Positions 3,653-55,134 of a DNA stretch of 55,636 bases are shown here, in pieces; within the stretch, counting starts at the first letter, position 1; each line of letters begins with the position of its first letter. The notes under the pieces are model-generated. The model did not search any database. It was not told where the DNA came from and was given only the letters and a program-made list of their open reading frames with translations. Both the position numbers and the translations under genes were made by a program. The stretch is from Oryzomonas sagensis (GTDB lineage Bacteria; Desulfobacterota; Desulfuromonadia; Geobacterales; Pseudopelobacteraceae). The stretch lies in the NCBI RefSeq assembly GCF_008802355.1, contig NZ_VZRA01000006.1:1-55636 (forward strand), written 5' to 3'.

Positions 3653-3659
3653 CAAAGGC

Positions 3660-7770: not shown

Positions 7771-7953
7771 GCTCCATCCTCCCAGTCAAATTTTCTCTTT
7801 TTTGTACATCAATTACAAAATCGCTTCACATCAATTTAACCTGAGGTATACTTTATGCCTGCGCTGAACATTATCCTCCTATCTCCAGAGGTGGGGGGGC
7901 GCAGTCCATTACGTGAGCTCATTGTACAGAGATTCCACAACCCGGGAGTGTAC

Positions 7954-33602: not shown

Positions 33603-34946
33603 CTACCTTCCCGCCACAACAGCGCTGAGGATATCCTCGGTCAGGCGCAGTCCTCCGCGGAAACCGGTGTAGCCCCGGTCGAGCACGGCACGGTTGGACA
33701 CCGGAAAACTGACCGACAGGTGGGGAGCGCCGACGGTCTGGGCCAGTTCCCGCTCCAAAGAGCTGCCGATGACAAAGGCCGGGCTGAAGGCGTTATGGTA
33801 CTTTTGGCCGCCGGCCGGCGGCCATTTTTTCTGCAGGTGTTCGATGGCGCGGCTGCCGTCGGTCTCGAAGACCAGCGTGGTCTTGTAGCGCGACTCCAGC
33901 ACGTTCAATTGGCTGGTCAGCCGGTCTTTTTCCTCGTCCTCCAATGGGTCGGTGCAGACGGTCAGTTCGGGGAGCCATCCCAGGTCGTCGGCCAGGAACT
34001 TGGTCAGGGCCGTGGCATAGTTGGCGTCGCCCACGACGACGGCGTAACGTTGCAGGTCCAGGTCGTTGAGGCAGTCGGTCAGCGGCTCGAGGAAGCGGAA
34101 GTAGGCCTGTTTCTCCCGGCTGAGGACCGTGTTGACCTTCTGCCGGGAAATCTTCAGGGCCTTGCCCACGCTCCGCAGGAAGGCTTCCGAGGCGCTGGCG
34201 CCCACCGGCAACGACAGGCTCAGAAAGGGGGTGCCGTGGATCTCTTCGAACAGCTTGGCAGCCTCGACCCCGTAGACGTGGGACACGACGATGTTCAATG
34301 AGGCCGCCCCGGCCTTGCGGATGTTCTCTATGGTGTCTTCCGAGGTGAAGAAGGAGTTGACGGTCAGCCCCAGGGCCTCCAGCAGGCGGCGCACCCCTTC
34401 AAGGTTGCCGCGCCAGAACGGGTCTGCCGACGGCACGACGCCCCACAGGTTGACGCTGTTTTTGACCTTTGCCGTGCCGCGCTCCACGAATTCCCGGAAC
34501 AGGGACTGCAAGGCCAGATCGTATCCCCAGTAGGAGTTGCCCTTGAACCCGCCGGTCTCGGCGCCGATGATCGGAACGTTCTGATCGCGGAAATCGGCAA
34601 CCACCGTCTTGATGTCGTCGCCGATCACCTCGGTGACGCAGCCGGTCAAGACGGCGTAGATCTGGCCGTCCATGACCTTTATGGTGCTTTCGACCTGTTC
34701 CCTGAGGCGCGCATCGCCGCCGAAGACCACCTCCCGTTCCTGGACGTTGGAACTGGGGATGGAGAGGGGCCCGCAATACCCCCCCACCTGGAGACCCGAG
34801 CCGCCGTTCTGGGCCCAGGCGAAGTTGCCGGCGCAGCCCGAGGCGGCATGAAGGATGGGGATGCCTCCGGGAAGGGCCGCGATGGTCGCCGCAGCACCGC
34901 CAAGTGCGCACACGTAACGGGGCCGTTCGATGAAATTGTCACTCAT
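33603..34946 (-). CDS. Nitrogenase-like beta subunit (NifK/MarK-like)
   Basis: 447 residues, shorter than NifK (~520). P-cluster cysteines are kept: Cys38 (AASGCAGN), Cys58 (GGYCGPL) and Cys103 (TGCVTEVIGDD). The start overlaps the nifD-like stop (ATGA), so the subunits are made together. It should pair with NifD-like as a heterotetramer receiving electrons from a NifH-like protein. Clearly not nitrogenase proper; closest known functional analogue is methylthio-alkane reductase. The exact substrate is inferred. Confidence 0.85.
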   Translation of the reverse strand: MSDNFIERPRYVCALGGAAATIAALPGGIPILHAASGCAGNFAWAQNGGSGLQVGGYCGPLSIPSSNVQEREVVFGGDARLREQVESTIKVMDGQIYAVLTGCVTEVIGDDIKTVVADFRDQNVPIIGAETGGFKGNSYWGYDLALQSLFREFVERGTAKVKNSVNLWGVVPSADPFWRGNLEGVRRLLEALGLTVNSFFTSEDTIENIRKAGAASLNIVVSHVYGVEAAKLFEEIHGTPFLSLSLPVGASASEAFLRSVGKALKISRQKVNTVLSREKQAYFRFLEPLTDCLNDLDLQRYAVVVGDANYATALTKFLADDLGWLPELTVCTDPLEDEEKDRLTSQLNVLESRYKTTLVFETDGSRAIEHLQKKWPPAGGQKYHNAFSPAFVIGSSLERELAQTVGAPHLSVSFPVSNRAVLDRGYTGFRGGLRLTEDILSAVVAGR

Positions 34947-36463
34947 GCCGCTGTACCTCCACGTTGATCGATATGGGAAAAGGGGTCCGCCGTGTACCAG
35001 GCGTCACTGTAGGGAAGCCGGAGATTTTCGCCCAGCTTGCGGTTATAGATCGGATTTTTGAGCTGGCGGTACAGGCGGCGGGCAACCTCGTAGACCCCGC
35101 GGTAGCCGATGTAGGCCAGGCCGGTGTTGTAGATGACATGGGTGGGAATGCCCAGCTTGGCGGCGGTGCCGTTGCCGTTGGCATGCCCCAGGAACAGGTC
35201 CGGCTTGATCCTTTTCAGCAGGTTGGCCTCCTCGAAGGGCTGTACGTTGGCGACATCGACCACATAATCGTCCTTGCTGGAATCGGCCAGTTTCCGATAT
35301 TCCCCCTCGGCGAATTCGTCGTGGTGGAAGGAGCGGATGCCCGTGACCGTGAGCCCCAGCTCTTCCAGCAGCCGGGCCGTTGCCAAGGCGCGGAACTCGC
35401 CCGCGCTGATGAAGACCCGCTTGCCCTCGAACACGGGGCGGAAGACCTCCAACGCCTCCCGCAGTTCCCGCTCCTCATGTTCGATGATCCGCTCCGCCTT
35501 CTCCTCCTCGCCGAAACGGGCCGCCACGTCCCGCAGCCAGAGGCCGGTGTTCTCGATGCCGATCGGCATGTGGCGGATCAGGGAGGGGACGCCGAAACGC
35601 TCCTCCAGATAACCGAGGAAATAGTCGTCATGGGTCGGGCACGTGCTCACGGAGAGTGCCGCCTGGGTGGCCTTGACCATGTTCTCGGGATGGGCGAAGA
35701 CCGGGAAGACGTTGACATCCAGGCCGAGGGTGGTCAGGAGGCGCTCCAGCTCCACCTCGTCGACACGCCCCATGGAGGACACGTTCATGAGGTTGACGGT
35801 GCGGGGCAGGCGTTCCAGCCCCTTGAAGGGCGCCAGGCCGTCCCCGGTCGGCGACTGTTCCCCCGGGGAGAGCAGGGTGCGGCCGATGCCGTGATAGACC
35901 GCATCGTAGGCCGTGGCCCAGATCTTGGTCTTGAAGCCTTCGCAATGCACCGGCAGCAGCTTGGCGGTCACCTGGGGCTGAACCCGTTGCACCACGCCGT
36001 CGATATCGTCGCCGATGATGCCGGGCACACAGCCCGCCACCACGGTAATGCTGAAGGGGCGGTACCGCCGGTCGGCCTCGATGATGGCCTGTTCCAGCTT
36101 CTCTTCTCCTCCGGTGATGACATCGGTTTCATCCATGGCCGTGGAGAGCCAGACGCCGTCCTTGGGGCGTCCCCAGCGCGCATTGCTGCCGAAGCGGACA
36201 TTGGTGTTCTGGGAGTGGGTGCAGCCGCCGCAGCCGATGGCGCTGTGCAGCAACACCACATTGTCCGGTAGGGTGTTGAGCATGGCCAGGGCCGGCAGGA
36301 TCAGGCAGATGGACCCTTGGGTGAAGGAGCGTTCGCCGTCGTCGTGCAGGCAGGACTTCTTGCCCTTGGCGCCGGCCATTTCGCAGATCGTGCCGCCGTG
36401 GGCGATGCAGGCCTTGAGGCGGTCTTCGCGCTTCGGGGGGGATTTCAGGTCGATATAGCTCAT
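34943..36463 (-). CDS. Nitrogenase-like alpha subunit (NifD/MarD-like)
   Basis: 506 residues from ATG 36463. P-cluster cysteines: Cys53 (GSICLIL), Cys78 (SAIGCGGC) and Cys145 (VAGCVPGIIGDD). The candidate cofactor ligands Cys275 (VSTCPTHDDY) and His442 (IPTHVIYNTG) are both present, so it probably holds an 8Fe-type cluster. The stretch corresponding to nitrogenase Gln191/His195 reads GFKTKIWATAYDAV, so the N2-reducing site is not conserved. It also lacks nifEN partners. With MetY, CysK and organosulfur-type transporters, C-S bond reduction is the best hypothesis. Confidence 0.87.
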   Translation of the reverse strand: MSYIDLKSPPKREDRLKACIAHGGTICEMAGAKGKKSCLHDDGERSFTQGSICLILPALAMLNTLPDNVVLLHSAIGCGGCTHSQNTNVRFGSNARWGRPKDGVWLSTAMDETDVITGGEEKLEQAIIEADRRYRPFSITVVAGCVPGIIGDDIDGVVQRVQPQVTAKLLPVHCEGFKTKIWATAYDAVYHGIGRTLLSPGEQSPTGDGLAPFKGLERLPRTVNLMNVSSMGRVDEVELERLLTTLGLDVNVFPVFAHPENMVKATQAALSVSTCPTHDDYFLGYLEERFGVPSLIRHMPIGIENTGLWLRDVAARFGEEEKAERIIEHEERELREALEVFRPVFEGKRVFISAGEFRALATARLLEELGLTVTGIRSFHHDEFAEGEYRKLADSSKDDYVVDVANVQPFEEANLLKRIKPDLFLGHANGNGTAAKLGIPTHVIYNTGLAYIGYRGVYEVARRLYRQLKNPIYNRKLGENLRLPYSDAWYTADPFSHIDQRGGTAA

Positions 36464-36522
36464 GGTTGTTCCTTTCTCCGTTTTTCCAGATGTTTTCATC
36501 TCGTTCCTGCTCAGGTATGGCG

Positions 36523-37881
36523 TTACAGCGTTTTTCTGATCTTTGCCGGAATGCCCCGCGAGCAGGGGATATTGGTGGAGCAATGACCGCAGGAGCCGTA
36601 ATTCCATTCCTTGAAATGCTCCTTGTTGCCGTGGGTCTCGCACCTTCCGGGCAGCTTGCCGGCAGCGGTGACGGCCCCGGTGGGGCAACGCCTGATACAG
36701 GCATCGCAGCTTCCGTCAAAGGCGTACAGACAGTAGCCGTAGACCTCCGTATAGTTTCTTTCCGTCGGGGTCAGGTGCAAGGTGGTGACAACGCTGCACA
36801 GCCGCCCAAGGCATCCCTTTTCGGAGATGAAATTCTGGTGCAGGCCGAAGGTGCCGAGTCCGGCGGCAAAAGCGGCATGGCGCTCCGACCAGAACGGCCG
36901 CCAGCCGTCGGAATCGTAGCGCGGGTCGATATTGGGCGCGACAGCCGCGCCGCCATGCCGCCCGGCGAAACGGATCAAGGCCCGGCGGACCACGTTGAGG
37001 AACTTGGAGCCGTTCCATTTGCCGGACGAGAATTCGATGGCGGAATAGCGTTGTTCCTTGGAATAGTTTGCCGATATGTGCTCCGTGAACGGCAGGAAAA
37101 CGCTGATGACCGAGCGGGCACCCGGCAGCCACTCATAGGGGAGACGGTGCCCGGGACCGACCACCTCCGGGTCCTGGAAGCGCTCGAACAGGGGGTCATG
37201 GGCAGAGGCGATGCCGATCAGCGGTTCTGACCATATCGGCGGATTTAGCCCTTCCGGGAGGGCATTGCGGAAATCGGTCTTCACCAGGTTCGTCACGAAA
37301 CCGAGCAGCTCATCGTACGGCACATCGGGCTGAATCTCTCCGTCAACCGCATGCTCCGGCACCGGATCGGGCAGGAAGAATTGGGGGTTGATCCCCTTCG
37401 CTATCTCCCGCCTCCTGGTCTTCCGCTCCGGGTTGGGATGGGGCGATCCCTTGACGATGAGGGGGGCGTCAAAGGGTTTTCTGAAGCCGGGGGGCGACCC
37501 CTTGGTGAAGTCATAGGCGGTCCAGATATAAAGTTGTTCGTAGATAGTCCCCAGCAACGCCTCGGCCAGTTCCGTCGCGCTCTGCCCGTCGTGCAGGCGG
37601 GTGGCACCCTCTTCCGGGAACAGTTCTCCCTCGATGAAGTAGTAGACCTCCTGGCGGATGGGGGTACTCGCGTTGCGCAGGGTGGCGGTCCGGTCCGCCG
37701 TCCGCACGGCAAGCACCTTGCGCCGGTCGGGCCGGTAGCCATAGTAGTTTGCCTGGAGGATGTAGTCTTTCAGACATTCGAACACCGACCGGCGGTTGAG
37801 GATGTTCGGGTAGGGTTCGCCCCATTTGGGGATCTCATTGACAAACAGCGACGTGCTTCCAGATGAAGTCTGGTCGGACAT
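36523..37881 (-). CDS. QueG-like 4Fe-4S reductase with large N-terminal extension
   Basis: 452 residues. The first ~200 match nothing I recognise. The C-terminal half has WSERHAAFAAGLGTFGLHQ, CDACIRRCPTGAV and CGHCSTNIPC, two 4Fe-4S sites as in the QueG relatives at 18576 and 29074. It lies directly before nifD-like in the operon, so it may pass electrons to the NifH/NifDK-like system or process a product. Confidence 0.75.
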   Translation of the reverse strand: MSDQTSSGSTSLFVNEIPKWGEPYPNILNRRSVFECLKDYILQANYYGYRPDRRKVLAVRTADRTATLRNASTPIRQEVYYFIEGELFPEEGATRLHDGQSATELAEALLGTIYEQLYIWTAYDFTKGSPPGFRKPFDAPLIVKGSPHPNPERKTRRREIAKGINPQFFLPDPVPEHAVDGEIQPDVPYDELLGFVTNLVKTDFRNALPEGLNPPIWSEPLIGIASAHDPLFERFQDPEVVGPGHRLPYEWLPGARSVISVFLPFTEHISANYSKEQRYSAIEFSSGKWNGSKFLNVVRRALIRFAGRHGGAAVAPNIDPRYDSDGWRPFWSERHAAFAAGLGTFGLHQNFISEKGCLGRLCSVVTTLHLTPTERNYTEVYGYCLYAFDGSCDACIRRCPTGAVTAAGKLPGRCETHGNKEHFKEWNYGSCGHCSTNIPCSRGIPAKIRKTL

Positions 37882-37891
37882 GGCGGTCTCC

Positions 37892-38656
37892 TTATCGTTT
37901 CCCGGTCCAGTACAGGGCTCTGCGCTGGATCGTATCGAAGAGTTCCATCATCAGGATGATGAAGAGGGACATGAAGATCATGCCGGCCAGGACCCGGGGA
38001 TAATCGGAGAAGTCCGAATAGTACTGGATGAAATACCCCATGCCGGATTTGGCCCCGAACATCTCCGCAACCGTCAGCAGGATAAAGCTGAAGACCAGCG
38101 CCATCCCGGCGCCGGCAAAGATATGGGGGAGCGCGCCCGGAAAGACCACCAGGCGGAGCAGGCGGCTGCCGTGCAGCCCCAGCGCCCTGGCGTTGTCCAG
38201 GTAGCGTTCCTCCAGGAGCACCACCCCATGGATGGTCCCCATCAGTATGGGCCAGAAGGCGCCCATGAAGATGATGAATGCCGACGAGAGCCAGAACGTG
38301 GGCAGCACGGAGATGGCGTAGGGGATCAGCATCGTGGGGGGGATCGGGCTGACGCCCCTGAAAAGCGGCATCAGCGTGGTCCGCACGGCCTGGTGATAAC
38401 CGACGAAGAGTCCCAGGCTGACCCCCAGGACGAGCGCCAGGACATAGCTGGGCAGCAGCAGGGCAAAGGAGCTCACCAGGCCTTCCATGAGCTTGGGGAA
38501 CGCCTCCGCGAATGCCGGGAGAATCCTGGACAGCCCCGGGAACAGGACCGGTTCCAGCCATCCCGTGATATCGGTGGCCAGTTCGAAGAGGGCCACGCAG
38601 ATCAGGATGATGACGGCTGTCCCGGCGTATTTTTTAGCGATTCTGGTCAGTAACAC
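37892..38656 (-). CDS. ABC transporter permease, SsuC/TauC family
   Basis: 254 residues, about six membrane segments, BPD-type permease of the nitrate/sulfonate/taurine class (VSLGLFVGYHQAV; NARALGLHGSRLLRLVVFPGALPHIFAG is the EAA loop). Eleven bases before the QueG-like gene. Second permease served by the ATPase at 42560-43375. Confidence 0.85.
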   Translation of the reverse strand: MLLTRIAKKYAGTAVIILICVALFELATDITGWLEPVLFPGLSRILPAFAEAFPKLMEGLVSSFALLLPSYVLALVLGVSLGLFVGYHQAVRTTLMPLFRGVSPIPPTMLIPYAISVLPTFWLSSAFIIFMGAFWPILMGTIHGVVLLEERYLDNARALGLHGSRLLRLVVFPGALPHIFAGAGMALVFSFILLTVAEMFGAKSGMGYFIQYYSDFSDYPRVLAGMIFMSLFIILMMELFDTIQRRALYWTGKR

Positions 38657-38668
38657 GGGCTATTTCCT

Positions 38669-39718
38669 CTAACTGTTCTGCTTTTCAAAGTGTTTTTTCG
38701 CATTCAGGTAATAACGATCCCTGGGGTTGCGGCGGATCAATTCACCGAGCGCGTCGCGGTACAACTGGGTGTTGATGTAGCGATTGATGTCCAGTTCCGA
38801 CGTGACATAGTTGATATCCTTCAGCTCATGCCACATCTGTTTGACCCGGTGCTTGTCGGGATCGACGCTGACATGCTGATGCGGTTCGCTCACGAAGGTG
38901 GCAGCCAGGTTGTCGTCGATATTCATGTAGCGCTTGGTGATGTTCTGGGCCAATTTGGGGTTGGTGTCCTTGATCTTCTCGGCTTGCAGCAGAGCCCGCA
39001 GGAAAGCCCGGTAGACGTCCGGGGCGCCGTTGACCGCCCTGCCCTTGGCGACGATGCGGCAGCAGGGATGCTGGGGGAAAAAGTCGTTGCTCCACCCGAC
39101 GATCGCGAGGCCGGATTCCTTGGCCTGCAGAAAGATGGACGACGCGCCGATGCCCACATCGACCTTGCCCGATTTGACCGCTTCCAGGACCGCGGGCGGA
39201 TTCTTCAGTTCTATGATCTTCAGGTCCCTGTTCGGGTCGATCCCGGCACGTTTGAGCGCTCCGCGCCAGACCACGTCCGCCGTATAGAGCCGGGGAACGG
39301 CAACCGTTTTACCCCTGAAATCCTTGATGGATTTGAACTGTCCGGCGCGCGCGGGAAGGGCTATGACCGGATGCCCCCCCGCCAGGGCTCCGCCGATGAT
39401 GGTGAAGTCGGAGCCCTTGGAGATAAAGGTCAACGGCGCCGCCGTGCCGAAGGAGATCCCGATGTCGATCTTGCCGCTGTTGAGCGCATTCAGGCCGTCG
39501 CCGGTGCTGCTGAACTGCACCAATTCGACCTCGACACCCTCCTTGGTAAAGAGCTTCTGATCCTGGGCGACGAAGGCCAGGATGCTGGCGCCGCCGGGGG
39601 TATAGCCGACCTTGAGTTTTCCCTGCTGTTTGGCCTCGGCCCGGGCCATGGTCAGCAGCAGCGCGACCAGCACCAGGGCGATAATGTTGCCTGCCAGTAC
39701 CACTTGTTTCAACCTCAT
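38669..39718 (-). CDS. ABC substrate-binding protein (SsuA/NMT1 type) with Cys-Cys motif
   Basis: 349 residues, signal peptide (LAGNIIALVLVALLLTMARAEA), AAGGAGA before ATG 39718. KVGYTPGGASILAFVAQDQKLF is the usual first strand/helix. Vicinal Cys219-Cys220 in HPCCRIVA lie in the second lobe, at the same place as in 40717-41745. Substrate unknown, probably organosulfur. Confidence 0.82.
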   Translation of the reverse strand: MRLKQVVLAGNIIALVLVALLLTMARAEAKQQGKLKVGYTPGGASILAFVAQDQKLFTKEGVEVELVQFSSTGDGLNALNSGKIDIGISFGTAAPLTFISKGSDFTIIGGALAGGHPVIALPARAGQFKSIKDFRGKTVAVPRLYTADVVWRGALKRAGIDPNRDLKIIELKNPPAVLEAVKSGKVDVGIGASSIFLQAKESGLAIVGWSNDFFPQHPCCRIVAKGRAVNGAPDVYRAFLRALLQAEKIKDTNPKLAQNITKRYMNIDDNLAATFVSEPHQHVSVDPDKHRVKQMWHELKDINYVTSELDINRYINTQLYRDALGELIRRNPRDRYYLNAKKHFEKQNS

Positions 39719-39755
39719 CTGATTCTCCTTTGGGTAGTATGAAAATGGACTAACG

Positions 39756-40658
39756 TTAGTTCCGCCACCGCAGTAGATGGCGTTCAAGGCGTTCCGTGCC
39801 GAAGGTGATGACCATCACCACCAGGCTGATGAAGATGATGCCCACGACCACCCGCGGGTAGTCGGCAAAGTCGGCGAAGTTCTTCACATACCAGCCGATG
39901 CCCGAGTTGGCGCCGATCAGCTCGGCGGCGGTCAACAGCACGAAGGCAAAAACCAGTGCAAGCGTGGCCCCGGTGCAGATGGAGGGCATGGCACCCGGCA
40001 GGATGACCCGCCGCAACAGCGTGCGCTCCTTCAAGCCGAGCACCCGTGCGGAGTCCAACAGCCCCTTGGGAATGTTGAAGACACCGTTGACCGTGTTGAT
40101 GAAAATGGGCCAGAAAGCGCCGATGAAGATCACGAAGATCGAGGCAGCGCGGAAACTCGGCAACAGGGCAATGGCATAGGGGATATAGACAATGGGCGGA
40201 ATGGGGCCCAGCACCTTGGTGAACGGGTTGACGGCATGGAACAGCCGGACCCGCCAGCCGACCAGAAGCCCCAGCGGCAGGGCGGTCGCCACGGCCAGCA
40301 GATACCCGCTCACCAACAGGATCAGGGAGTTCACCAGCCCTTTCAGCATGTCCGGCAATTCGGCGACAAACAGGGTCAATACCGCTTCCGGCTGGGGGAA
40401 GAGCATCTTGTCCAGCACAATGAAGCGGGAGGTGGCCACGTACCATGCCAGAAGAATGGCAAGGATGATGGCGCTCACATCGCCGGCTCCCCGACGTGAT
40501 GCTTCATTTTTGACGGTAGCAAGCATGATCAGATCAATGGCCTTGACCACAAGGGCGGCGGTCAAAAGATGCCAGGGGACCTGCCCTGCCGACGGCCAGA
40601 AAATGGTCGCCAGCAGGGTGACAAAGAGCAGGTTTGATGCAGTTGCTATCTGGTTCAT
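39756..40658 (-). CDS. ABC transporter permease, SsuC/TauC family
   Basis: 300 residues, about six or seven helices, EAA loop SARVLGLKERTLLRRVILPGAMPS. Similar to 37892-38656. ATG 40658 follows AGGATAT. Sits between two binding-protein genes. Confidence 0.85.
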   Translation of the reverse strand: MNQIATASNLLFVTLLATIFWPSAGQVPWHLLTAALVVKAIDLIMLATVKNEASRRGAGDVSAIILAILLAWYVATSRFIVLDKMLFPQPEAVLTLFVAELPDMLKGLVNSLILLVSGYLLAVATALPLGLLVGWRVRLFHAVNPFTKVLGPIPPIVYIPYAIALLPSFRAASIFVIFIGAFWPIFINTVNGVFNIPKGLLDSARVLGLKERTLLRRVILPGAMPSICTGATLALVFAFVLLTAAELIGANSGIGWYVKNFADFADYPRVVVGIIFISLVVMVITFGTERLERHLLRWRN

Positions 40659-40716
40659 GGGTATATCCTGATGGGTATGGATGTGCGGTTCCGGGCCGCA
40701 GCCCCGGAATGCCTTC

Positions 40717-41745
40717 TCAATCATTCTTTTTGTAGAAGCTCAGCATCTGCTGATAGACCTTGTCCTTAGGGTTTTTCTTGATCACCGAATCGAGCGCCTG
40801 CTTGTAGATGTCGGTGTTGATATGCTTGTCGATCGGGTAGTCCTGGGGGATGTAGCCCGCCTCACGGATATGCTGCCAGAAATCCAGTATCCCCTTGCGG
40901 AGCGGGTCGGGGTTCGATTCGGACACCTTTTTCACATACGTTTCGTTGCGGACGATGCCTTCGTCGATCTTCAGGGACTTGGTATAGATCCGGACCGTCT
41001 CTTCGGGGTTGGTTTTATAGAACCTGTAGGCACGGATCAGCGCGGCCAGGAAACGGCGATAGGTATCCTTGTCGGCATTCAGCTTGGCCGTGGGGGCAAC
41101 GATGCGGCAGCAGGTGTACTTGGGGTAGTATTCTTCGAGGTAGTGGGCAACCTTCAGGCCGCTGTTCTTCTCGGCCAGTGAAAAGTGAGGCGGCCACAGG
41201 AGCCCTGCATCCACGGCACCTTTCTTGATCGCCTCCACCACCGCCGTGGCCGAGCCCAGCTCAACGAACGTGATATCCTTTTTCCAGTCGATGCCGGCCT
41301 TTTTCAGGGCGCCCTTGAAGATGACATCACCGGTGGAAAGCTTCACCAAGCCGATCTTCTTCCCTTTGTAGACCTTGAGGTTCCTGCCCGAGAGTTCGGC
41401 CAGACGCTCCGGCCGGGTGACGATGGCCTGTCCGCCGATCATCATGCCGCCGAAGAAGGTGAAGTCGGACCCTTTGGAGATGAACAACAGCGGCGCGGTG
41501 GTGCCGAAGGTGCCCACGTCCAGTTTTTCTGCCTTGAGCGCGGCTATGCCCTCGGAGGCGCTGCCGAACTGGAACAGCTCCACGTCGACCCCTTCTTCCT
41601 TGAAGTAGCCCTTTTCCTTGGCCACGAAGTACAACCCGTGGGCCGGCTCCGGGACATACCCCACCCGAAGCTTGGGCAGGTTTGCGGCAACGGCGACGGA
41701 CACCATGAACATTGACAGCAGGAATGCGGCGATGATCCTCTTCAT
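40717..41745 (-). CDS. ABC substrate-binding protein (SsuA/NMT1 type) with Cys-Cys motif
   Basis: 342 residues, signal peptide ending SVAVAA; LRVGYVPEPAHGLYFVAKEKGYF; Cys212-Cys213 in YTCCRIVAP. AAGGAGG before ATG 41745, whose first bases overlap the stop of the next upstream gene. Paralogue of 38669-39718. Confidence 0.83.
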   Translation of the reverse strand: MKRIIAAFLLSMFMVSVAVAANLPKLRVGYVPEPAHGLYFVAKEKGYFKEEGVDVELFQFGSASEGIAALKAEKLDVGTFGTTAPLLFISKGSDFTFFGGMMIGGQAIVTRPERLAELSGRNLKVYKGKKIGLVKLSTGDVIFKGALKKAGIDWKKDITFVELGSATAVVEAIKKGAVDAGLLWPPHFSLAEKNSGLKVAHYLEEYYPKYTCCRIVAPTAKLNADKDTYRRFLAALIRAYRFYKTNPEETVRIYTKSLKIDEGIVRNETYVKKVSESNPDPLRKGILDFWQHIREAGYIPQDYPIDKHINTDIYKQALDSVIKKNPKDKVYQQMLSFYKKND

Positions 41746-42563
41746 TGGGTACTGCCTCCTTGTAACGAAAATAGTCTGCCGGAATTTGCCGGGCAGCAAT
41801 TGGGCGTGCAGACCGCCCTGGAGAACAGGTCGTGCAGGACAGGGTCCATGGGACCCATCAACAGGCGGTCCAGTGCATCGCAGTAAATCTCTTCATAGAC
41901 ATGGTTTGCCAGGAAATCACCCGGCATGGCGGCATCCTGGAGGCCGAGCCCCTGCCAGATGCGGAGCATGCGCCAATAGTCCGGGTTGGGGTCGAAATGG
42001 ATATTCGGGGCAACCGTTCCTTGCGCCAGCTTCTGCAGCGTTGCCTGTCTGACTGCCGGCGGTTGCTGGTGCAGCGTGCGGTGGGCCCGGATCAGGGCGG
42101 CGGTCAAGCCGATGATGGTGCCCTTTTCGGCCGCCGGCCGGCCTGCCGGAACGAGCACGACAATCCCCCTGCGCTCCTGTTCGCGCTGAGCGCTTTCGTC
42201 CAGGTTAGCCAGCGGCCCCGCGTCGGCGGGGGTCCCGCCTCCGGCAATGATGCGGAATTCCTTTCCTTTGGCTATCTGCCCCAGCGCCTCTCCGACCATG
42301 AAGGCTCCGGCGTCGATGGAGCCCGCCTCGAGGGCGGCCAGGCCGCCGGCGGTATCCTGAAATTTGACCAGTTTGACCTGCAATCCTTCTTCGCGAAAAT
42401 GGCCGTATGTCGCGGCAACGCGGCACAGGGCGCTGCCGGGGTGGTCCAGGTAGCCCAGGCGGAAGATTTTTCCCGCCGCACGGCACGGCATGACGCCGGA
42501 GACCAGCAACAGCACCGCCATGAGAGGCGGTGCCGCTATCCGGCGGACACGCCCGGGACTCAT
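41742..42563 (-). CDS. Shortened SsuA-like binding protein lacking most of lobe 2
   Basis: 273 residues with signal peptide (AAPPLMAVLLLVSGVMPCRA). The first lobe (FRLGYLDHPGSALCRVAATYGHF; GSIDAGAFMVGEALGQIAKG) is normal. After IIAGGG the sequence jumps to VLVPAGRPAAEKGTIIGLTAALIRAH, the region following the Cys-Cys motif in its neighbours. About 80-90 residues of lobe 2 are absent, though the frame is kept. Coupled by ATGA overlaps on both sides. It may be non-binding or regulatory. Confidence 0.7.
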   Translation of the reverse strand: MSPGRVRRIAAPPLMAVLLLVSGVMPCRAAGKIFRLGYLDHPGSALCRVAATYGHFREEGLQVKLVKFQDTAGGLAALEAGSIDAGAFMVGEALGQIAKGKEFRIIAGGGTPADAGPLANLDESAQREQERRGIVVLVPAGRPAAEKGTIIGLTAALIRAHRTLHQQPPAVRQATLQKLAQGTVAPNIHFDPNPDYWRMLRIWQGLGLQDAAMPGDFLANHVYEEIYCDALDRLLMGPMDPVLHDLFSRAVCTPNCCPANSGRLFSLQGGSTQ

Positions 42564-43375
42564 ATCCCATCCCCCTGGGATGCGACTATCTGACCGGCAT
42601 CCAGCTCGGAGAGGATGTTTTCGTACAGCACCGTGACCAGGCGGTCCCGCAGTGCCTGGAAGGTCTGGTTGTGGTACAGTTCCTGGCGGATGCGGGGACG
42701 GGGCAGGTCAACCTCGAATACGCCCTTGATGGTGCCGGGATTGACGCCCAGCACCACGATGCGGTTGGCCAGCAGGATGGCCTCCTCCACGTCATGGGTG
42801 ACGAAGAAGACTGTCTTGCGCTCGTCCTGCCGCTGCTGCCAGAGCTGGAGCAACAGGTCCTGGAGCCGGGCGCGGGTGATGGCGTCCAGTGCGCCGAAGG
42901 GCTCGTCCATCAAAAGCACCGGCGCGTTAATGGCAAAGGCCCGCGCAATGGCGGCCCGCTGGCGCATCCCGCCCGAAAGCAGGCCGGGGAGTTTGTCGTA
43001 GGCATCCGGCAGGCCGACCATCTCCAGGTAGCCGGCCGCCGTCTCACGGTACTCCTCCTTCTTCTTCCCGGGGAAGGCCTGTTCCAGGGCCAGGACGATG
43101 TTCTGCCCGGCGGTCATCCAGGGAAACAGGGAGTAATCCTGGAAGACCACCCCCCGGTCCAGGCCGGGACCGCTGATCTGCTTCCCGTCCAGGGTGATGC
43201 CCCCCGACGAGGGAAAGGAAAGCCCTGCCAGAAGCCGCAGGAGCGTACTCTTGCCGCAGCCGGACGGCCCCAGCAGGCAGACGAAATCCCCCGGTTCGGC
43301 GGTAAAGGTGATGTCCTGCAGGACCCGTTGGTCACCGTAGGAATAATTAACGTTGGACAATGTCACTTCGTACAT
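42560..43375 (-). CDS. ABC transporter ATPase, SsuB/TauB family
   Basis: 271 residues from ATG 43375. Walker A GPSGCGKST, Q-loop VFQDYSLFPW, signature LSGGMRQR, Walker B VLLMDEPFGALD, H-loop VTHDVEEAI. Only ATPase for two permeases and three binding proteins downstream. Confidence 0.92.
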   Translation of the reverse strand: MYEVTLSNVNYSYGDQRVLQDITFTAEPGDFVCLLGPSGCGKSTLLRLLAGLSFPSSGGITLDGKQISGPGLDRGVVFQDYSLFPWMTAGQNIVLALEQAFPGKKKEEYRETAAGYLEMVGLPDAYDKLPGLLSGGMRQRAAIARAFAINAPVLLMDEPFGALDAITRARLQDLLLQLWQQRQDERKTVFFVTHDVEEAILLANRIVVLGVNPGTIKGVFEVDLPRPRIRQELYHNQTFQALRDRLVTVLYENILSELDAGQIVASQGDGI

Positions 43376-43385
43376 GGAGCTATCC

Positions 43386-44042
43386 TCACAGATCCCGTTT
43401 GTCGGCCAGCCGTTTGTAGTACGAGTGGCTGGTGTACAGCGCGCCGACCGGGTTGTGGGCCAACACGCGGTCCTTGACCACAAGGTAGGTGACCGGCGCT
43501 TTGGAGTATTTGATGAACATGGAATCGTGGCCGACGCACAGGCCGACGATTATGTTCAGATCGGTCTTTTCCCTGGCCAGGATGCGGGCCTGGAGCACCG
43601 GGTTGCAGGCCGATTCGTGCTGGCCCTTGTTGATCTTGTGCTCTTCCGGGATGCCCAGTTCGGTCTTATCCACCGAACCGACCTTGCAGGCCACGGTATA
43701 GCTCTGTATCCCCTGGGCATCGAGGAACTTGATGAAGTTTTTGGTCTCGTTGATCAGGCCGACGCAGGTGGCGATGCCGACCTTCTTTGCCTTGATGCGG
43801 CGGGCAAAGGCGGCCACCTCCTCCACGCGGGTCAACCTGCCGTAATAGGTCCCTTCGACCTCTGCGGCGGCGTTGGAGATCTTCGACACCAGCGGATCTT
43901 CGCGGTAGATGCGGCTGACCTCCTCGATCTCCTGTTTGTCCTCGGCCTCGGTCAGGCAGAAGGCGGGAAAAACGGAGGTCCGCGAGTTGCAGTTGACGGT
44001 GGCGCAGTCGCCACAGGTCAGTACGTTCTTTTTCTTGGCCAT
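43386..44042 (-). CDS. DUF1847 protein (cysteine-rich, metal-binding)
   Basis: 218 residues. N-terminal CGDCATVNC suggests a Zn or Fe-S site; later CVGLINETKNF, ESACNPVLQA and GLCVGHDSMFIKYSKAPVT give further conserved-type cysteines, as in DUF1847. Function unknown. Its place between nifH-like 1 and the transporter genes makes it a candidate accessory or metallocluster carrier. Confidence 0.8.
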   Translation of the reverse strand: MAKKKNVLTCGDCATVNCNSRTSVFPAFCLTEAEDKQEIEEVSRIYREDPLVSKISNAAAEVEGTYYGRLTRVEEVAAFARRIKAKKVGIATCVGLINETKNFIKFLDAQGIQSYTVACKVGSVDKTELGIPEEHKINKGQHESACNPVLQARILAREKTDLNIIVGLCVGHDSMFIKYSKAPVTYLVVKDRVLAHNPVGALYTSHSYYKRLADKRDL

Positions 44043-44069
44043 GGTTCTCTCCGAAGGATGGTATTATCG

Positions 44070-44207
44070 GACTGTTGAAAAGCTCAGGTTGTTCAAAAAT
44101 AGTCAGATCGTCGCACCCGGAGAAGGCCCTAAGGAGGCGTAGCAGCGCTACGCCGCACGAAAGGGCTTTCGATGAGGGCGGCGAGATGGCTGTTTTTCAA
44201 CAACCTC
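44070..44207 (-). repeat. MITE-like palindromic repeat, copy 3
   Basis: Same ends and core as copies 1 and 2 (GGTTGTTCAAAAATAGTCAG ... GGCTGTTTTTCAACAACC). Placed between DUF1847 and nifH-like 1; the right end is next to the nifH-like stop. Confidence 0.87.
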
Positions 44208-45083
44208 TTAGATGCTTGCCCCGTTGCTGCGCACCTCCCCGGCTTCAACGGCCAGGATCTGATCGGACCAGTCGGCGGCCCACTTGCGCAGCGCCTCCGC
44301 GCTCAGCGGCTCCGGCACCTTGGATTCAGTGTGGTTGGCGATCCTGTCCGCAAGCTTCTTATAGACCTGGGCCTGCTCGGAATCGGGGAAGGCCTCGATG
44401 GTGGTCTTGCCCTGCAACTCGGCCTGGGTGACGGTGATCGAACGGGGCACATACTCCATCACCTGGGTGTTGGTGCGGGCCACGAAGTCGTCGATGATAT
44501 GCTTGGCGTAGGGTGCATTGACGGAGTTGGCGATCACCCCGCCCAGGAGCGCCCCGCCGTTGTTGGAGTACTTCTTGATGCCGGTGAACAGGTTGTTGGC
44601 GGCGTAAATGGCCATGAAGTCCGACGACGACACCGTGAAGACATGCTCGGCGATCCCCTCCCGGATCGGCACGGCAAAGCCGCCGCAGACCACGTCCCCC
44701 AGGACGTCGTAGATCACGTAATCCAGGTCCAGTTCCTCGAAGACCCGTTGCTGTTTGAGCAGCTCGATGGCGGTGATGATGCCGCGGCCGGCGCAGCCGA
44801 CCCCCGGCGCGGGTCCGCCGGCCTCCACGCAGTGGACGCCGTTGAAACCGGAGAAGATCACTTCGCCGGCCTTGGCGCTCTTCTTTTCCCGCAGGGTATC
44901 CAGGATCGTGGGGATGTAGTTCCCCCCCCGCAGGGTGACGGTGGAGTCGTTCTTGGGGTCGCAGCCGACCTGCATGACCTTGTAGCCTGCCACCGACAGG
45001 GCGGCGGTGATATTGGAGGTGGTGGTGGATTTACCGATGCCTCCCTTGCCGTAGATCGCTATCTGTTTCGGTTTTTTTGCCAT
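44208..45083 (-). CDS. NifH-like reductase component 1
   Basis: 291 residues. P-loop [10 protein letters not shown] (11-20), cluster cysteines Cys97 (GVGCAGRG) and Cys133 (GDVVCGGF), switch regions DPKNDST and YDVLGD. Arg100, the site of ADP-ribosylation in NifH, is present. A homodimer with one 4Fe-4S would deliver electrons to NifDK-like with ATP hydrolysis. Preceded by nifX-like in the operon and by GGAGGAAC ribosome site. Confidence 0.92.
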
Positions 45084-45095
45084 CTGTTCCTCCGG

Positions 45096-45440
45096 TTATT
45101 TGATGTAGGTGAAACGCTTCGACGCCCGCAATGTTTCCAGGGCCTCGTCGATGAGGCCGCCCATGGTGAAGGCCAGAATCCGGTGACCGATGAGGGCGTC
45201 GATGGCGCCGGGGCCGACCTGGGCGGCAACCACCCCTCGGCAGTCGGCAATGAGTTGCGCGGCCCGGTCCAGAACATCGTCGTCATGCTGCTGCCCCCCG
45301 CAGGCCGGGGTATTTTTCCGCAGTTCCAGAAATTCATGCCCTTCGTCGTGCAGCCGGTAGATGCGGAAGGCCCGCGCCCTGCCGAAATGCTCGTTTATCG
45401 TCGTCCCGTCGCTGCTTGCCACGGCGATCTTTACATCCAT
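45096..45440 (-). CDS. NifX/NafY-type cofactor carrier
   Basis: 114 residues from ATG 45440 (GAGGAG upstream). Dinitrogenase FeMo-cofactor family: KIAVASSDGTTINEHFGRA, FRIYRL, GVVAAQVGPGAIDAL. It could carry the NifB product to NifDK-like and replace the NifX domain missing in NifB-like. Confidence 0.85.
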   Translation of the reverse strand: MDVKIAVASSDGTTINEHFGRARAFRIYRLHDEGHEFLELRKNTPACGGQQHDDDVLDRAAQLIADCRGVVAAQVGPGAIDALIGHRILAFTMGGLIDEALETLRASKRFTYIK

Positions 45441-45812: not shown

Positions 45813-46658
45813 TTACTGGCCCCAAAAGTGGGACAGTACCTGCTCTTTAAGCGTCTCAATGGCAACGGTCCGATGCCGGCGCGGCCGAGGGACGTCGATG
45901 GCGACCCGGCCACGGATCGCTCCGGGCGCCGGGGAGAAGATGTAGACCTCGTCGGACAGGCAGACCGCTTCGCCCACGTCGTGAGTCGCCAGGACAATGG
46001 TTATGCCGCTGGTCTCCCAGAGGCGCACCAGATCGTCCTGGAGTTTTTCCCGGGTCAGGGCGTCAACGGCTGCAAAGGGCTCATCCATCAGGATGATCCG
46101 GGGTTCCGCGGAAAAGGCCCGCGCCAGGGCCAGCCGCTGGCGCATGCCGCCCGACAGGTGGGACGGGTAGCTGTCGGCGGCCTCCTCAAGACTGACCATG
46201 GCCAGATAGTGGCGGGCCAGTTTTTCGCGCTCGCCCCGGGGGACGCCGCGCAGCCCGAGGACGAACTGCACGTTCTGACGGGCGGTCATCCAGGGGAAGA
46301 CGGCGTAGTCCTGGAAGATCATGGCGATGTCGTGCCGGGGCTTGTTGCGGAAGAGGCTGTTGGCGATGGGGGAGAGGAAGCGGTGCTTTTTCCGGTACGC
46401 CTTCATCCCGGCCTGGGTTGCGGGGAGCGGCTCCAATACCCGTGTGCCGTCGATACGCACTTCACCGTGGGACGGCGCCTGAAGCCCGGCCAGGATCTCC
46501 AAAAAGGTGGACTTGCCGCAGCCGGTCGGACCGACCAGGGACACAAAGGCGCCGTCTGCGATGGTGAGCGACACCGACTGCAGCACCGTCTTGTCCGCCG
46601 TACGCCCCTGCCCGCTTGAAGTGGGAAAGGTTTTGGTGATGGCGACCGCCTCGATCAT
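45813..46658 (-). CDS. ABC transporter ATPase, SsuB/TauB family, with insert
   Basis: 281 residues. Walker A GPTGCGKST, signature LSGGMRQR, Walker B IILMDEPFAAVD. About 25-30 extra basic residues (LPATQAGMKAYRKKHRFLSP...) sit between the Walker A strand and the Q-loop IFQDYAVFPW, compared with 42560-43375. Last gene of the metY transcript. Confidence 0.9.
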   Translation of the reverse strand: MIEAVAITKTFPTSSGQGRTADKTVLQSVSLTIADGAFVSLVGPTGCGKSTFLEILAGLQAPSHGEVRIDGTRVLEPLPATQAGMKAYRKKHRFLSPIANSLFRNKPRHDIAMIFQDYAVFPWMTARQNVQFVLGLRGVPRGEREKLARHYLAMVSLEEAADSYPSHLSGGMRQRLALARAFSAEPRIILMDEPFAAVDALTREKLQDDLVRLWETSGITIVLATHDVGEAVCLSDEVYIFSPAPGAIRGRVAIDVPRPRRHRTVAIETLKEQVLSHFWGQ

Positions 46659-46662
46659 GGCG

Positions 46663-47505
46663 TCACCGTTCGATGCGCCATACGGCCAGCTTCGACTCGG
46701 CGTATTTCACTGTTTCGGTCATAAGCCATCCGGCAGCGCCCAGGATCAGCATGCAGACCGCCATCCGGTCGATCTGGAAATATTCCTTGCCCCGCAGCAG
46801 CAGGTAGCCGATCCCGCTGCCGCCGCTCTGCATCTCGGCCACCACCAGCATGACCAGTCCCAGGGCGATGCCGATCCTGATCCCCATGATGACCGAACCG
46901 AGGGCGTGCCAGATGTGAACGTGGGTAATGATGGTGAATTCGCTGGCGCCGAAGACGCGGGCCGAGGCGATGTACCGGGGGTCGGTCTCGCTGATCCCCT
47001 GGTAGGTACTGAACAGCACCGGATAGAACACCCCCAGGAAGATGAGGAACACCTGCATCGGCAGGCCGATGCCCAGCACGATCATGGTGACCGGCACCCA
47101 GGCCGGCGGCGGGATCGGCGCCAGGATCTGGAACAGGGGCAGGCAATGCTTGCGGATGAACCGGTTCCACCCCATCAGTACCCCGAGGGGAAAAGCGGTC
47201 GCCACCGCCAGGGTGAAGCCGAGGAAGAAGCGGAGCGCGCTCTCCCCCAGGTGCCCCAGCAGATGTTGCTTCTGGAGCATCTGGCCGAAGGTGGAAAAGA
47301 GCGTTGACGGTGGCGGAACGAGGGAGGCCGGCACCAGGCCGAGCCGGGGCAGGAGTTCCCAGAGGATCAGCAACGGCATCAGCACGGTCAGGGATTCCCG
47401 GGACAGCAGGCTGCCGAAGGACGACCGCCAGAAGAGCCGCACCTCGGCCGGCAGCCGCCGCCAGCGGCCTTCAGTCCCACCCGCGATCAGCGGAGCACCA
47501 GGCAT
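46663..47505 (-). CDS. ABC transporter permease, SsuC/TauC family
   Basis: 280 residues, about six helices. ATAFPLGVLMGWNRF; EAA-loop region SARVFGASEFTIITHVHI. The 5' end overlaps the binding-protein gene by 19 bases. Works with the ATPase four bases downstream. Confidence 0.87.
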   Translation of the reverse strand: MPGAPLIAGGTEGRWRRLPAEVRLFWRSSFGSLLSRESLTVLMPLLILWELLPRLGLVPASLVPPPSTLFSTFGQMLQKQHLLGHLGESALRFFLGFTLAVATAFPLGVLMGWNRFIRKHCLPLFQILAPIPPPAWVPVTMIVLGIGLPMQVFLIFLGVFYPVLFSTYQGISETDPRYIASARVFGASEFTIITHVHIWHALGSVIMGIRIGIALGLVMLVVAEMQSGGSGIGYLLLRGKEYFQIDRMAVCMLILGAAGWLMTETVKYAESKLAVWRIER

Positions 47506-48416
47506 CGCCCATCTCCCAACTCCTTGCGCAGGTCATCGCCCACCGTCACGAAGTTTGCCGTCGGCAGCCGTTCCAGGTCTTCCCGGGAATAACCGAGCCG
47601 TTTGCTTACCGCCTTGCGTAGTTCGGCAGGGGGCAGTGCGCTGGCCGCCAGCAGCGACTGCACCACCGGCTTGAGCGCCTCCACGGCCCCTCCCCTGACC
47701 ACCAGAAAATAATCGCTCTGGGCCAGGGCGGCCGGGCAGCACTCGTCGCCGGCCTTGATGTCCCAATTCTGGTAGAGCACCTTGTGCCCCAGGTGCTCGG
47801 CGAGCACCGCGTAGGAACCCTTCACCAGCACGGCATCGACCTTGCCCGCCTCCAGGGCGGGCACCATCTCGTCGAAGGACATGAAACGGGTGCGTATCCG
47901 ATCCACGTCGACGCCCAGGCGCTTGGCGTCCCTCCTGAACTGGTGGAGCAGCTTGCAGTCCGGTTCCTGAGCCGCAATGGTCCTGCCGGCAAGATCCCCC
48001 AGACGGATGTTGAGATCCTTGCGGATCACCAGCGTCGCACCGTAGGGAAACTGTACGGCACCAGCCACCTTGAGGGTCTCGCCTCCGGGTGCCTTGAGCA
48101 GTTTCACCGCCTTGTTGGTCTCGACAAAACCGGCGTCGACCGCGCCCGAGATCAGGGAGTAGCCGATGTCGCCACCGCTGCCGATGGGAACCGCTTGCCA
48201 GGCACGCGGCCGGCCCGCCTGGCGCTCATCGGCGGCGTACAGCGGCCCGAGCAGGGGGCTGTCACCGTAACCGATGCGGACGGACGGCGGCGACTGAGCC
48301 GGGCCAGGTTGGAGGGAACCCTGGTGCGGATTCTGTTTCCGGCACGCCGCACACAGTAGTATCGTTGTGAAGAGCAGCACAATCCATGGGGCGAGCATCT
48401 GTCTTTTCCGGTTCAT
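47487..48416 (-). CDS. ABC substrate-binding lipoprotein (SsuA/NMT1 type) with Cys-Cys motif
   Basis: 309 residues from ATG 48416 (GGAGG upstream). Lipobox LLCAAC, so membrane-anchored after cleavage. VRIGYGDSPLLGPLYAADE; vicinal Cys226-Cys227 in GDECCPAALA correspond to the Cys-Cys of the other binding proteins. Confidence 0.8.
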   Translation of the reverse strand: MNRKRQMLAPWIVLLFTTILLCAACRKQNPHQGSLQPGPAQSPPSVRIGYGDSPLLGPLYAADERQAGRPRAWQAVPIGSGGDIGYSLISGAVDAGFVETNKAVKLLKAPGGETLKVAGAVQFPYGATLVIRKDLNIRLGDLAGRTIAAQEPDCKLLHQFRRDAKRLGVDVDRIRTRFMSFDEMVPALEAGKVDAVLVKGSYAVLAEHLGHKVLYQNWDIKAGDECCPAALAQSDYFLVVRGGAVEALKPVVQSLLAASALPPAELRKAVSKRLGYSREDLERLPTANFVTVGDDLRKELGDGRCLVLR

Positions 48417-48459
48417 CCGTTGCGAATCCTCCCTGTCTCTGTGACTCCGTGCCAGATAT

Positions 48460-49422
48460 TCAGCGGGCGGCACCCCAGGTAATCCCCTTGAATGCCGCGG
48501 CATACAGGTTCTCCTTCGGATTCTCCCGAATCTCCTTAATGGCCGCCAAATCCTCGCCCAAGACGTGTAAACCTTTTTCATCGATCCTGTCGTTGAAGGT
48601 GAAGCGGCGGGCGGCACGCGTGATGGCCTGTTGCGGAGCGCCGGTGTATTTCTGGGCGATCTCCGCGATCTGCCGGGAGGCGGGGGCCTTGTTGATAAGG
48701 GTATTGGCCTCCCGGATGGCCGCAACCAGGCGTTTGAGCGCGTCCGGGTTTTCCTTGAGATAGGCCGTGCGTGCATTGATGGTCCGGCAGGGGAACTTCT
48801 GCGGAGCGTCGCGCAGGATTGCCCTGTACCCTTTGATCTCGGCGATGGCGAGGTGCGGGTCCTCCAGGATGGCGCCATCCACCTTGCCGGCATCCAGCGC
48901 GACGATAGCCGGACCTCCGGCCAACTTTTCCAGGACAAAGCGGGCGCCGGCTTCACGGGCCTTTTTCTCGTAGGCGATAACCGCCTCGCAGGCCGGGGCG
49001 CTGCCGGCAATGCGTTTTCCGTTCAAATCCCTGTAGGACCTGATGGGAGAGCCCTTGGGAACGACCAGCAGCGAGGAACAGGGGGCCTTGACCTGGGCAA
49101 TGATCTTGAGCGGTGCGCCGTTGGCGATAGCCGAAACAGCTACCGACGGGCAGGACCAGAAGACGTCGGCCTGGCCGGAGATCACCAGATCGCGGGCCAG
49201 GGCCGGGTCCCTGGCCTCCACGATGGCAACGTCAAGCCCGTGTTTTTGGAACAGCCCACGCTCCTGGGCCACATACAGGTTCAGGTGGTTGGTTGTTTTG
49301 GCGTCGGCAATGATGATCCTGGCGGGGGCGGCCTCCTTGCGGGCCGCAACCGCCCCCCCCATGCCGGCCGCCAGGGCGGCAAAAACGCCGACAGCGATAA
49401 TCCCGGTTCGCCACATGCCCAT
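48460..49422 (-). CDS. ABC substrate-binding protein (SsuA/NMT1 type)
   Basis: 320 residues with signal peptide (GIIAVGVFAALAAGMGGAVAA). IIIADAKTTNHLNLYVAQERGLF starts lobe 1. It carries cysteines at APCSSLL, APACEAV and FPCRTI but only a single Cys where the neighbours have two. Fourteen bases after metY, so one operon. Confidence 0.83.
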   Translation of the reverse strand: MGMWRTGIIAVGVFAALAAGMGGAVAARKEAAPARIIIADAKTTNHLNLYVAQERGLFQKHGLDVAIVEARDPALARDLVISGQADVFWSCPSVAVSAIANGAPLKIIAQVKAPCSSLLVVPKGSPIRSYRDLNGKRIAGSAPACEAVIAYEKKAREAGARFVLEKLAGGPAIVALDAGKVDGAILEDPHLAIAEIKGYRAILRDAPQKFPCRTINARTAYLKENPDALKRLVAAIREANTLINKAPASRQIAEIAQKYTGAPQQAITRAARRFTFNDRIDEKGLHVLGEDLAAIKEIRENPKENLYAAAFKGITWGAAR

Positions 49423-49436
49423 ATCGGTTTCCCCCC

Positions 49437-50816
<1,380 letters not shown>

Positions 50817-53998: not shown

Positions 53999-54180
53999 TT
54001 AAATCCCGCCGCCGTCCACATACCCGACCTTGTTGAGCCGGATCTTCTCGCTCTTGTCCACCTGGATCACCCGGCCGTCCTGCACCACCAGGGTCACCGT
54101 GCCGAAACGGATCGAGCTCAGCGCCTCACGCACGACCTGCTCCAGGTCCCGGCTCCATGGCTCAGGGGTCGGGGCGGCCA

Positions 54181-54181
<1 letters not shown>
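53999..54181 (-). CDS. YezD-like small protein (DUF2292), copy 2
   Basis: 60 residues, identical to copy 1 except Thr5 for Pro5. The ATG overlaps the cysK stop. Ends 68 bases before leader D. Confidence 0.85.

Positions 54182-55134
<953 letters not shown>

Follow-up and report, generated by a model that had tools for sequence, protein, structure and literature searches.

A nitrogenase-like operon of Oryzomonas sagensis with a proposed role in carbon-sulfur bond cleavage

What might a pair of nitrogenase-like subunits do amid a block of sulfur genes? The question is raised by an operon of the Geobacter relative Oryzomonas sagensis, which lies on the minus strand of the window analyzed here, i.e. 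the whole stretch of 55,636 nucleotides of contig NZ_VZRA01000006.1 (contig C6 of genome G000, 3.6 Mb, 100% complete). The operon (33603-45437) runs from a NifX-like gene (45437) through the gene for the K subunit (33603) and comprises twelve genes, which are separated by short gaps or overlap. A preliminary description had proposed an enzyme for sulfur salvage similar to methylthio-alkane reductase (Mar), possibly with a different organosulfur substrate, and its genes and coordinates for the operon were borne out. As judged from the sequences, it is considered rather likely that the operon encodes a NifB-dependent reductase that cleaves C-S bonds for sulfur scavenging, a third kind beside Mar and isethionate reductase (Isr). 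The sulfur would probably be released as sulfide or methanethiol.

Kinship of the D and K subunits

A profile search revealed that both subunits are full-length, intact PF00148 proteins:
33603..34946, minus strand: K subunit, NifK/MarK-like, 447 amino acids; PF00148 E 2e-70; MarK 9d9u_C E 3e-80; P-cluster Cys13, Cys38 and Cys103, extra Cys58
34943..36466, minus strand: D subunit, NifD/MarD-like, 507 amino acids from ATG; PF00148 E 7e-81; MarD 9fmg_A E 1e-65; P-cluster Cys53, Cys78 and Cys145, predicted cofactor ligands Cys275 and His427, further Trp182, Tyr186 and His380

Mar was reportedly described by North in Science in 2020. When the sequences of solved structures were searched, MarD was the best match of D (E 1e-65; best nitrogenase E 3e-34) and MarK the best match of K (E 3e-80; next match E 1e-31), with identities of about 32 and 35%, respectively. 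An AlphaFold model of D, which was built from 54 sequences and had a predicted local distance difference test score (pLDDT) of 89.8, was closest in fold to MarD 9fmg_A (template modelling (TM) scores 0.84/0.91, root mean square deviation 2.6 A). Besides three MarD chains, nitrogenase chains were found among the matches listed (top 50) with query-normalized TM scores of 0.68-0.76. Neither the fold search nor the NCBIfam profile scores of D (CfbD 42 bits, BchB 96 bits, NifE 175 bits, all under the cut-offs) indicated a placement in CfbD or BchNB, whose sequences were not among the rows of the trees.

A D tree was calculated from 70 representatives of 140 rows (clustering at 72% identity), and a K tree from 61 rows, both as quick searches with support from the Shimodaira-Hasegawa-like approximate likelihood ratio test (SH-aLRT) only. 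The window D was found in a clade of 12 rows (SH-aLRT 99) within a superclade of 43 rows (99), and MarD of Rhodospirillum rubrum was placed in a separate clade of 19 rows (100). The K tree had the same splits (99, 99, 100). Genes that are 75-81% (D) and 72-76% (K) identical to R. rubrum MarDK are present as separate genes in G060 and G084; neither genome carries a window-clade D, and G084 has sister-clade pairs. Plain MarDK was rejected as an identity on the basis of the separate clade in both trees and of the absence of an equivalent of MarD Arg428. By their sequences, the window D and K are a distinct clade and not MarDK orthologues.

Window-clade rows stem from Geobacterales, Bacillota (Heliobacterium mobile, Pelosinus propionicus, Clostridium polyendosporum, Sporobacter termitidis), Spirochaetota and one Myxococcales (Myxococcota) contig that is cut at its end. 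A D at least 75% identical to that of the window is carried by 21 of the 97 relatives, G000 included, in two cases split over contigs, and the spread is patchy. As a separate observation, locus L010 of G001 (1504-4365) has D and K in one open frame of 953 amino acids, which is either a D-K fusion in one metagenome-assembled genome (MAG) or a sequencing indel. Several nitrogenase-like D/K pairs with 30-50% identity are clustered within single genomes, i.e. on C50 of G084 (L039-L041), C155 of G079, C1 of G078 and C16 of G073, and each of them is accompanied by different sulfur or transport genes.

Heliobacterial pairs have been described before. An extract of PMC9147875 calls the role of NflDK2-4 of Heliophilum fasciatum unknown and proposes no function for them. 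The D of Heliobacterium mobile locus L071 is in the window clade, and that of Heliophilum locus L108 (at 9992), presumably one of NflDK2-4, is in the sister clades. A further D in each locus (L108 at 809, L071 at 20055) adjoins a nifH-like gene, with a metY-type gene at a distance of 10 bases; these D proteins have the Arg-His motif, belong to the MarD clade, and are taken to be NflDK1. In the same extract NflDK1 is suggested to fix N2, and the Heliophilum pair beside the nifH-like gene groups with NfaDK. Because the L108 D at 809, taken as that pair, is in the MarD clade, Nfa (group IV-A, Endomicrobium) probably belongs there, too.

Predicted active site and cofactor supply

The alignment of D comprised 42 window-clade, 54 other superclade, 26 MarD-clade and 6 NifD rows, which are related and not independent. 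As had been proposed, Cys53, Cys78 and Cys145 are the P-cluster cysteines: they align with MarD Cys66, Cys91 and Cys158 and are conserved in all 122 rows of the window clade, the other superclade and the MarD clade. Cys275, likewise named there as a cofactor ligand, aligns with MarD Cys270 (122/122). For the second ligand the preliminary description had chosen His442, which is His in 39 of 42 window-clade rows and in none of the 80 others. This candidate was rejected, because it is His427 that aligns with the Loop I ligand His429 of MarD (His in 122/122 rows, including 96/96 of the superclade); its placement is based on the alignment and the secondary structure of the D model. On the K side, Cys38 and Cys103 were confirmed as P-cluster residues, but Cys58 was rejected as a ligand, the conserved set being Cys13, Cys38 and Cys103 (128/128 K rows). 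Cys58 is an extra cysteine of the superclade (81/87 K rows; 37/37 in the window clade, 44/50 in the rest) and is missing from the MarD clade (0/19).

The nitrogenase residues Gln191 and His195, present in 6/6 Nif rows, are indeed replaced, namely by Trp182 and Tyr186 in 42/42 window-clade rows, which led to the rejection of a nitrogenase identity. The position of MarD Trp195 is Trp in 42/42 window-clade rows but only in 8/54 other superclade rows, that of Phe199 is Tyr in 96/96 superclade rows, and in all 42 window-clade rows that of His194 is Ile and that of His375 His. The Arg directly before the Loop I His occurs in 26/26 MarD-clade rows and in 0/96 superclade rows; an extract of PMC12552129 proposes that Arg428 and His429 together may be a hallmark of methylthio-alkane reductases.

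NifB would be needed to supply such a cofactor. A TIGR01290 match at E <= 5e-72 was found in 34 of 36 carriers, in 15 of them above the curated cut-off, and most matches lacked the NifX-like end of the model. A search of 18 carriers revealed that in G116, G118, G122 and G123, which are MAGs of unstated completeness, this D/K pair is the only PF00148 pair; in the first three, NifB is encoded on the same contig. With no second enzyme of the family to serve, the pair cannot act as a scaffold in these genomes, and NifEN would not be needed. The claim that no nifEN is present holds for O. sagensis locally, but not genome-wide: four further PF00148 stretches are found on contig C1 of G000, and separate nif genes exist in the genome.

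Operon, transport and neighboring genes

The other ten genes of the operon are all on the minus strand:
36523..37881: QueG-like Fe-S protein, 452 amino acids; TIGR00276 only 36 bits (cut-off 200), no Pfam match
37892..38656: SsuC/TauC-type permease perm2; PF00528
38669..39718: SBP3, SsuA-family binding protein that carries the Cys-Cys motif; PF13379/PF09084
39756..40724: SsuC-type permease perm1; PF00528
40717..41745: SBP2, SsuA-family binding protein that carries the Cys-Cys motif; PF09084/PF13379
41742..42563: SBP1, small NMT1_2-like binding protein; PF13379 25.0 bits (cut-off 24.7)
42560..43375: nitrate/taurine-type ATP-binding cassette (ABC) ATPase; PF00005, TIGR01184 263 bits (cut-off 292)
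43386..44042: DUF1847 protein; PF08901 E 8e-63
44208..45083: NifH-like reductase with Cys97 and Cys133; PF00142 E 4e-100, TIGR01287 above cut-off
45096..45437: NifX-like protein; PF02579 E 5e-20

The NifX-like, NifH-like, DUF1847 and SsuABC-type genes are thus as previously described, while the likeness to QueG is weak. The QueG-like gene, perm2 and SBP3 form a recurring cassette in the gene order of Geobacterales loci. The QueG-like and DUF1847 proteins had no PDB sequence match up to E 1, an AlphaFold model of the former (four sequences, mean pLDDT 36) was not used, and the term DUF1847 was not found in the open-licence literature searched. The binding proteins gave weak PDB matches, from which no ligand could be named. 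A Cys-Cys pair is located about two thirds along the binding proteins SBP2, SBP3 and SBPB (TCCR, PCCR, ECCP) and is absent from SBPC. In the genes for binding proteins located up to 8 kb from a D gene, it was present in 35 and absent from 5 in the window clade (14 and 11 in the rest), and it was found at that position in 0 of 31 NMT1-family proteins of G000 and its relatives encoded away from such D genes. The set near D was collected because of its similarity to the proteins of the window itself, and this contrast is therefore inflated. Elsewhere in the window (7855-9990) a protein of 711 amino acids is encoded whose NMT1 domain is strong (173 bits) and which is probably a sensor using a binding-protein domain; similar proteins occur in other members of the genus.

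Upstream of the operon, on the same strand, a second SsuABC-type system and further sulfur genes follow:
45813..49422: second ABC transporter; ATPase 45813-46658, permease 46663-47505, binding proteins from 47487 (with Cys-Cys) and 48460-49422; Pfam
49437..50726: metY-type O-acetylhomoserine sulfhydrylase; PF01053, TIGR01326 above cut-off
50817..51791: rhodanese-type sulfurtransferase; PF00581
51927..52472: S-adenosylmethionine-type methyltransferase; PF13489
52940..53812: H2, divergent second NifH-like protein; PF00142 E 1e-61
53999-54181: OscA-like gene, its translation of the same type as the OscA/DUF2292 copy at 222-404
54181-55134: cysK; TIGR01139 above cut-off
55197..55583: Rrf2-family CymR-like regulator, reaching the contig end; PF02082, CymR NF047409 57.5 bits, under cut-off

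At the left end of the window, two features are on the plus strand:
528..1370: second NifB-like radical SAM protein; TIGR01290 298 bits (cut-off 344), NifX-like end of the model absent, 75% identical to the NifB of the nif locus
1384..1788: remaining N-terminal part of a MarD-clade D subunit, downstream of nifB; 53% identity over 66 amino acids to the D of L037, E 1e-14, no Pfam match

The profile matches verified the presence of metY, rhodanese and cysK in the immediate vicinity. The second nifB, the second NifH, both OscA-like genes and the CymR-like protein had escaped the preliminary description. H2-type divergent NifH proteins, with the P-loop and both cluster cysteines kept, also accompany D/K operons in L060 (12.9 kb) and L066 (4.1 kb), and in some loci they are the only NifH seen nearby. 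A stretch of 404 bases, containing the end of cysK and OscA, is found as inverted copies at opposite contig ends (1-404 and 53999-54402; 99.3% identical), and because the contig begins inside one copy, this repeat probably broke the assembly. The left copy is followed by the second nifB, the first part of the MarD-clade D gene and then unrelated sequence. This region is a decayed Mar-type locus in which nifB has been retained, and the surviving gene may perhaps serve the D/K operon when the nif genes are off.

Neighbors were counted around the D genes of loci L057-L136 on contigs of varying length, and the numbers are given for the window clade (33 D genes), the rest of the superclade (51) and the MarD clade (20). 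MarD-clade loci were few and were mostly seen only through their proximity to superclade loci, which biases contrasts between the clades. Within 5 kb of D, cysK was found in 11/33, 32/51 and 5/20 cases, so that it was rejected as a clean separator of the window clade from Mar; metY differed more (2/33, 7/51, 6/20). Within 8 kb, NifB was encoded in 10/33, 17/51 and 7/20 cases and a close NifH in 14/33, 21/51 and 9/20. A URO-D methyltransferase was present within 2 kb in 18/33, 10/51 and 1/20 cases, a corrinoid protein within 8 kb in 12/33, 15/51 and 0/20, and a RACo activator nearby in 12/33, 10/51 and 1/20. All 19 URO-D proteins adjoining D have kept the His-Cys-Cys zinc site, which is the pattern of S-methyltransferases according to an extract of PMC10418091. 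Some RACo was found in 71/97 relatives, and a stronger, MGC-type kind (at least 227 bits, a cut-off set after the score gap had been seen) in 17/21 carriers versus 4/76 others (Fisher 8e-12, uncorrected for kinship). The carriers G000, G002, G004 and G077 lack the stronger kind, and G000 has a single RACo match, which belongs to the weaker kind. In G001, which belongs to the same genus, a corrinoid protein, two URO-D genes and RACo are situated between the second NifH and metY, where the window has the methyltransferase and rhodanese genes. The tightest set is that of L078, in which URO-D, cysK, D, K, H, NifB, binding protein, ATPase and permease are together.

Proposed function and alternatives

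Kinship, residues and gene linkage suggest the following course of import, electron transfer, reduction and capture. NifB would make an [Fe8S9C] cluster, which would be inserted into D without NifEN and be held by Cys275 and His427, as in the homologous MarDK structure. The SsuABC-type transporters would import an organosulfur compound, NifH would deliver electrons under ATP hydrolysis, first to the P-cluster that lies between D and K, then to the [Fe8S9C] cluster, and D/K would reductively cleave the C-S bond. Sulfide could then be taken up by CysK, or methanethiol by MetY; in relatives methanethiol could be demethylated by corrinoid S-methyltransferases. The CymR-like Rrf2 protein probably turns the block on under sulfur shortage. 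A release at the sulfide or thiol level is weakly favored over sulfite, because the sulfite/nitrite reductase family PF01077 was found in only 14 of 19 carriers (including G000, with two matches), not in G116, G118, G119, G126 and G128, MAGs of unstated completeness, and because cysK is common near D.

Several observations weigh against the proposed function. NifB was not found in G119 and was only marginal in G123 in the TIGR01290 search, and no more than 10 of the 33 window-clade loci have it within 8 kb of D. Near D, cysK is not clearly more common in the window clade than in the MarD clade. A tblastn search found no Mlp methyltransferases, corrinoid protein or RACo activator in the window, and the species is without the corrinoid module by which most relatives are marked. 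NMT1/SsuA-type transporters also carry nitrate, vitamin precursors and other substrates. In genomes with other pairs, D could be an assembly scaffold.

If the operon encoded a divergent Mar, it would act on the same substrates (2-methylthioethanol, dimethyl sulfide, ethyl methyl sulfide) and pass methanethiol to MetY. The earlier proposal of a Mar-like enzyme fits insofar as MarDK are the best matches by sequence and fold, the predicted ligands and all six P-cluster cysteines are shared, equivalents of Trp195 and His375 are present, NifB co-occurs, and sulfur genes lie around the operon. Mar (MarBHDK of R. rubrum; PDB 9fmg, 9d9u) likewise consists of H, D, K and a NifB-like protein with metY nearby, and the URO-D S-methyltransferases of relatives could accept methanethiol. 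An identity with MarDK did not stand: D and K form a separate clade in both trees, Arg428 has no equivalent, His194, Phe199, Cys73 and Gln74 of MarD are replaced, K has the extra Cys58, and MarDK orthologues are different genes in G060 and G084. The window operon also adds cysK and SsuABC-type import, and a dedicated importer would be odd for small volatile thioethers. A mere Mar variant is thus regarded as unlikely. Still less probable is an Isr-like reductase that releases sulfite from taurine, isethionate or a similar sulfonate, in spite of the SsuA/SsuC/TauC-type transport genes. An extract of PMC11423573 describes Isr (IsrBHDK, Rhodobacter capsulatus) as a nitrogenase-like H, D, K system with a radical SAM protein, which cleaves C-S bonds for sulfur assimilation and adjoins Ssu/Tau-type sulfonate transporters. 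According to that extract, IsrD lacks two of the three D-side P-cluster cysteines (Cys62, Cys154) and both ligands (Cys275, His442), and its radical SAM partner IsrB is not NifB-like; in contrast, the window D has all five residues, and NifB itself is linked to the window clade. Isr identity was rejected on these residues, Isr sequences not being among the rows of the trees, and sulfite would be a dead end in the five carriers without a PF01077 match.

Two further alternatives were given hardly any weight. The pair might be a group IV enzyme that reduces N2, as proposed for Nfa, or a NifEN-like platform for cofactor maturation: all P-cluster residues and two cofactor ligands are present, NifB and NifX-like genes are nearby, and NifE is the best-scoring NCBIfam equivalog for D, though far under its cut-off. 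This is very improbable in view of Trp and Tyr at the Gln191/His195 positions, the separate nif genes, linked genes for sulfur rather than nitrogen, and the four genomes without another PF00148 pair to serve. Just as improbable is a methyl-selenium, arsenic or other soft-element compound as the substrate. The Cys-Cys motif would suit a soft ligand, and in an extract of PMC10418091 (Kountz and Balskus) mlp clusters are tied to selenium in most organisms; the same extract links group IV-A MarHDK-like genes to non-selenium type 1 mlp gene clusters, in or near which they lie. Around the operon, cysK, metY, OscA, rhodanese and the CymR-like regulator speak for sulfur.

Parts of the picture were already known, i.e. 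the MarDK structure, MarHDK-like genes near non-selenium mlp clusters, heliobacterial NflDK2-4, and pairs with Cys275 linked to metY or cysK. The latter are NifE/NifN-like pairs linked to O-acetylhomoserine sulfhydrylase or cysteine synthase, including one of a Geobacter strain (Dos Santos 2012, an extract of PMC3464626); the His442 ligand was thought to be absent from them, and the alignment with the later Mar structure gives the Loop I His. Loci of relatives share URO-D methyltransferases, a corrinoid protein, a RACo activator and sulfur genes with type 1 mlp clusters, whereas in O. sagensis the D/K block occurs with no corrinoid module. No study of the function of the window clade was found in the open-licence literature. 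Added here are the distinct clade, the Loop I His without Arg, a link to NifB that does not involve NifEN, the binding proteins with Cys-Cys pairs, and an operon without corrinoid module in one species.

Beyond the proposed C-S-cleaving reductase, it is tempting to speculate that the clade is a new nitrogenase-like class, an [Fe8S9C] desulfurase acting on a thiol or thioether imported with the Cys-Cys binding proteins. Sulfide would go directly to CysK, in most hosts in series with corrinoid S-methyltransferases, and the Loop I His without Arg, Trp182/Tyr186 and K Cys58 would confer a substrate range unlike those of Mar, Isr and nitrogenase. This more specific version is put forward only tentatively. 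A named gene set, the minimal operon of L078 and defined residues can now be tested. If the proposed function is true, nitrogenase-type [Fe8S9C] clusters serve more sulfur-releasing reactions than that of Mar, in anaerobes of at least four phyla, which bears on the proposal, made in an extract of PMC12552129, that C-S reduction preceded N2 fixation in this enzyme family. Anaerobes would have a route to organic sulfur when sulfate is scarce, which would feed cysteine and methionine synthesis.

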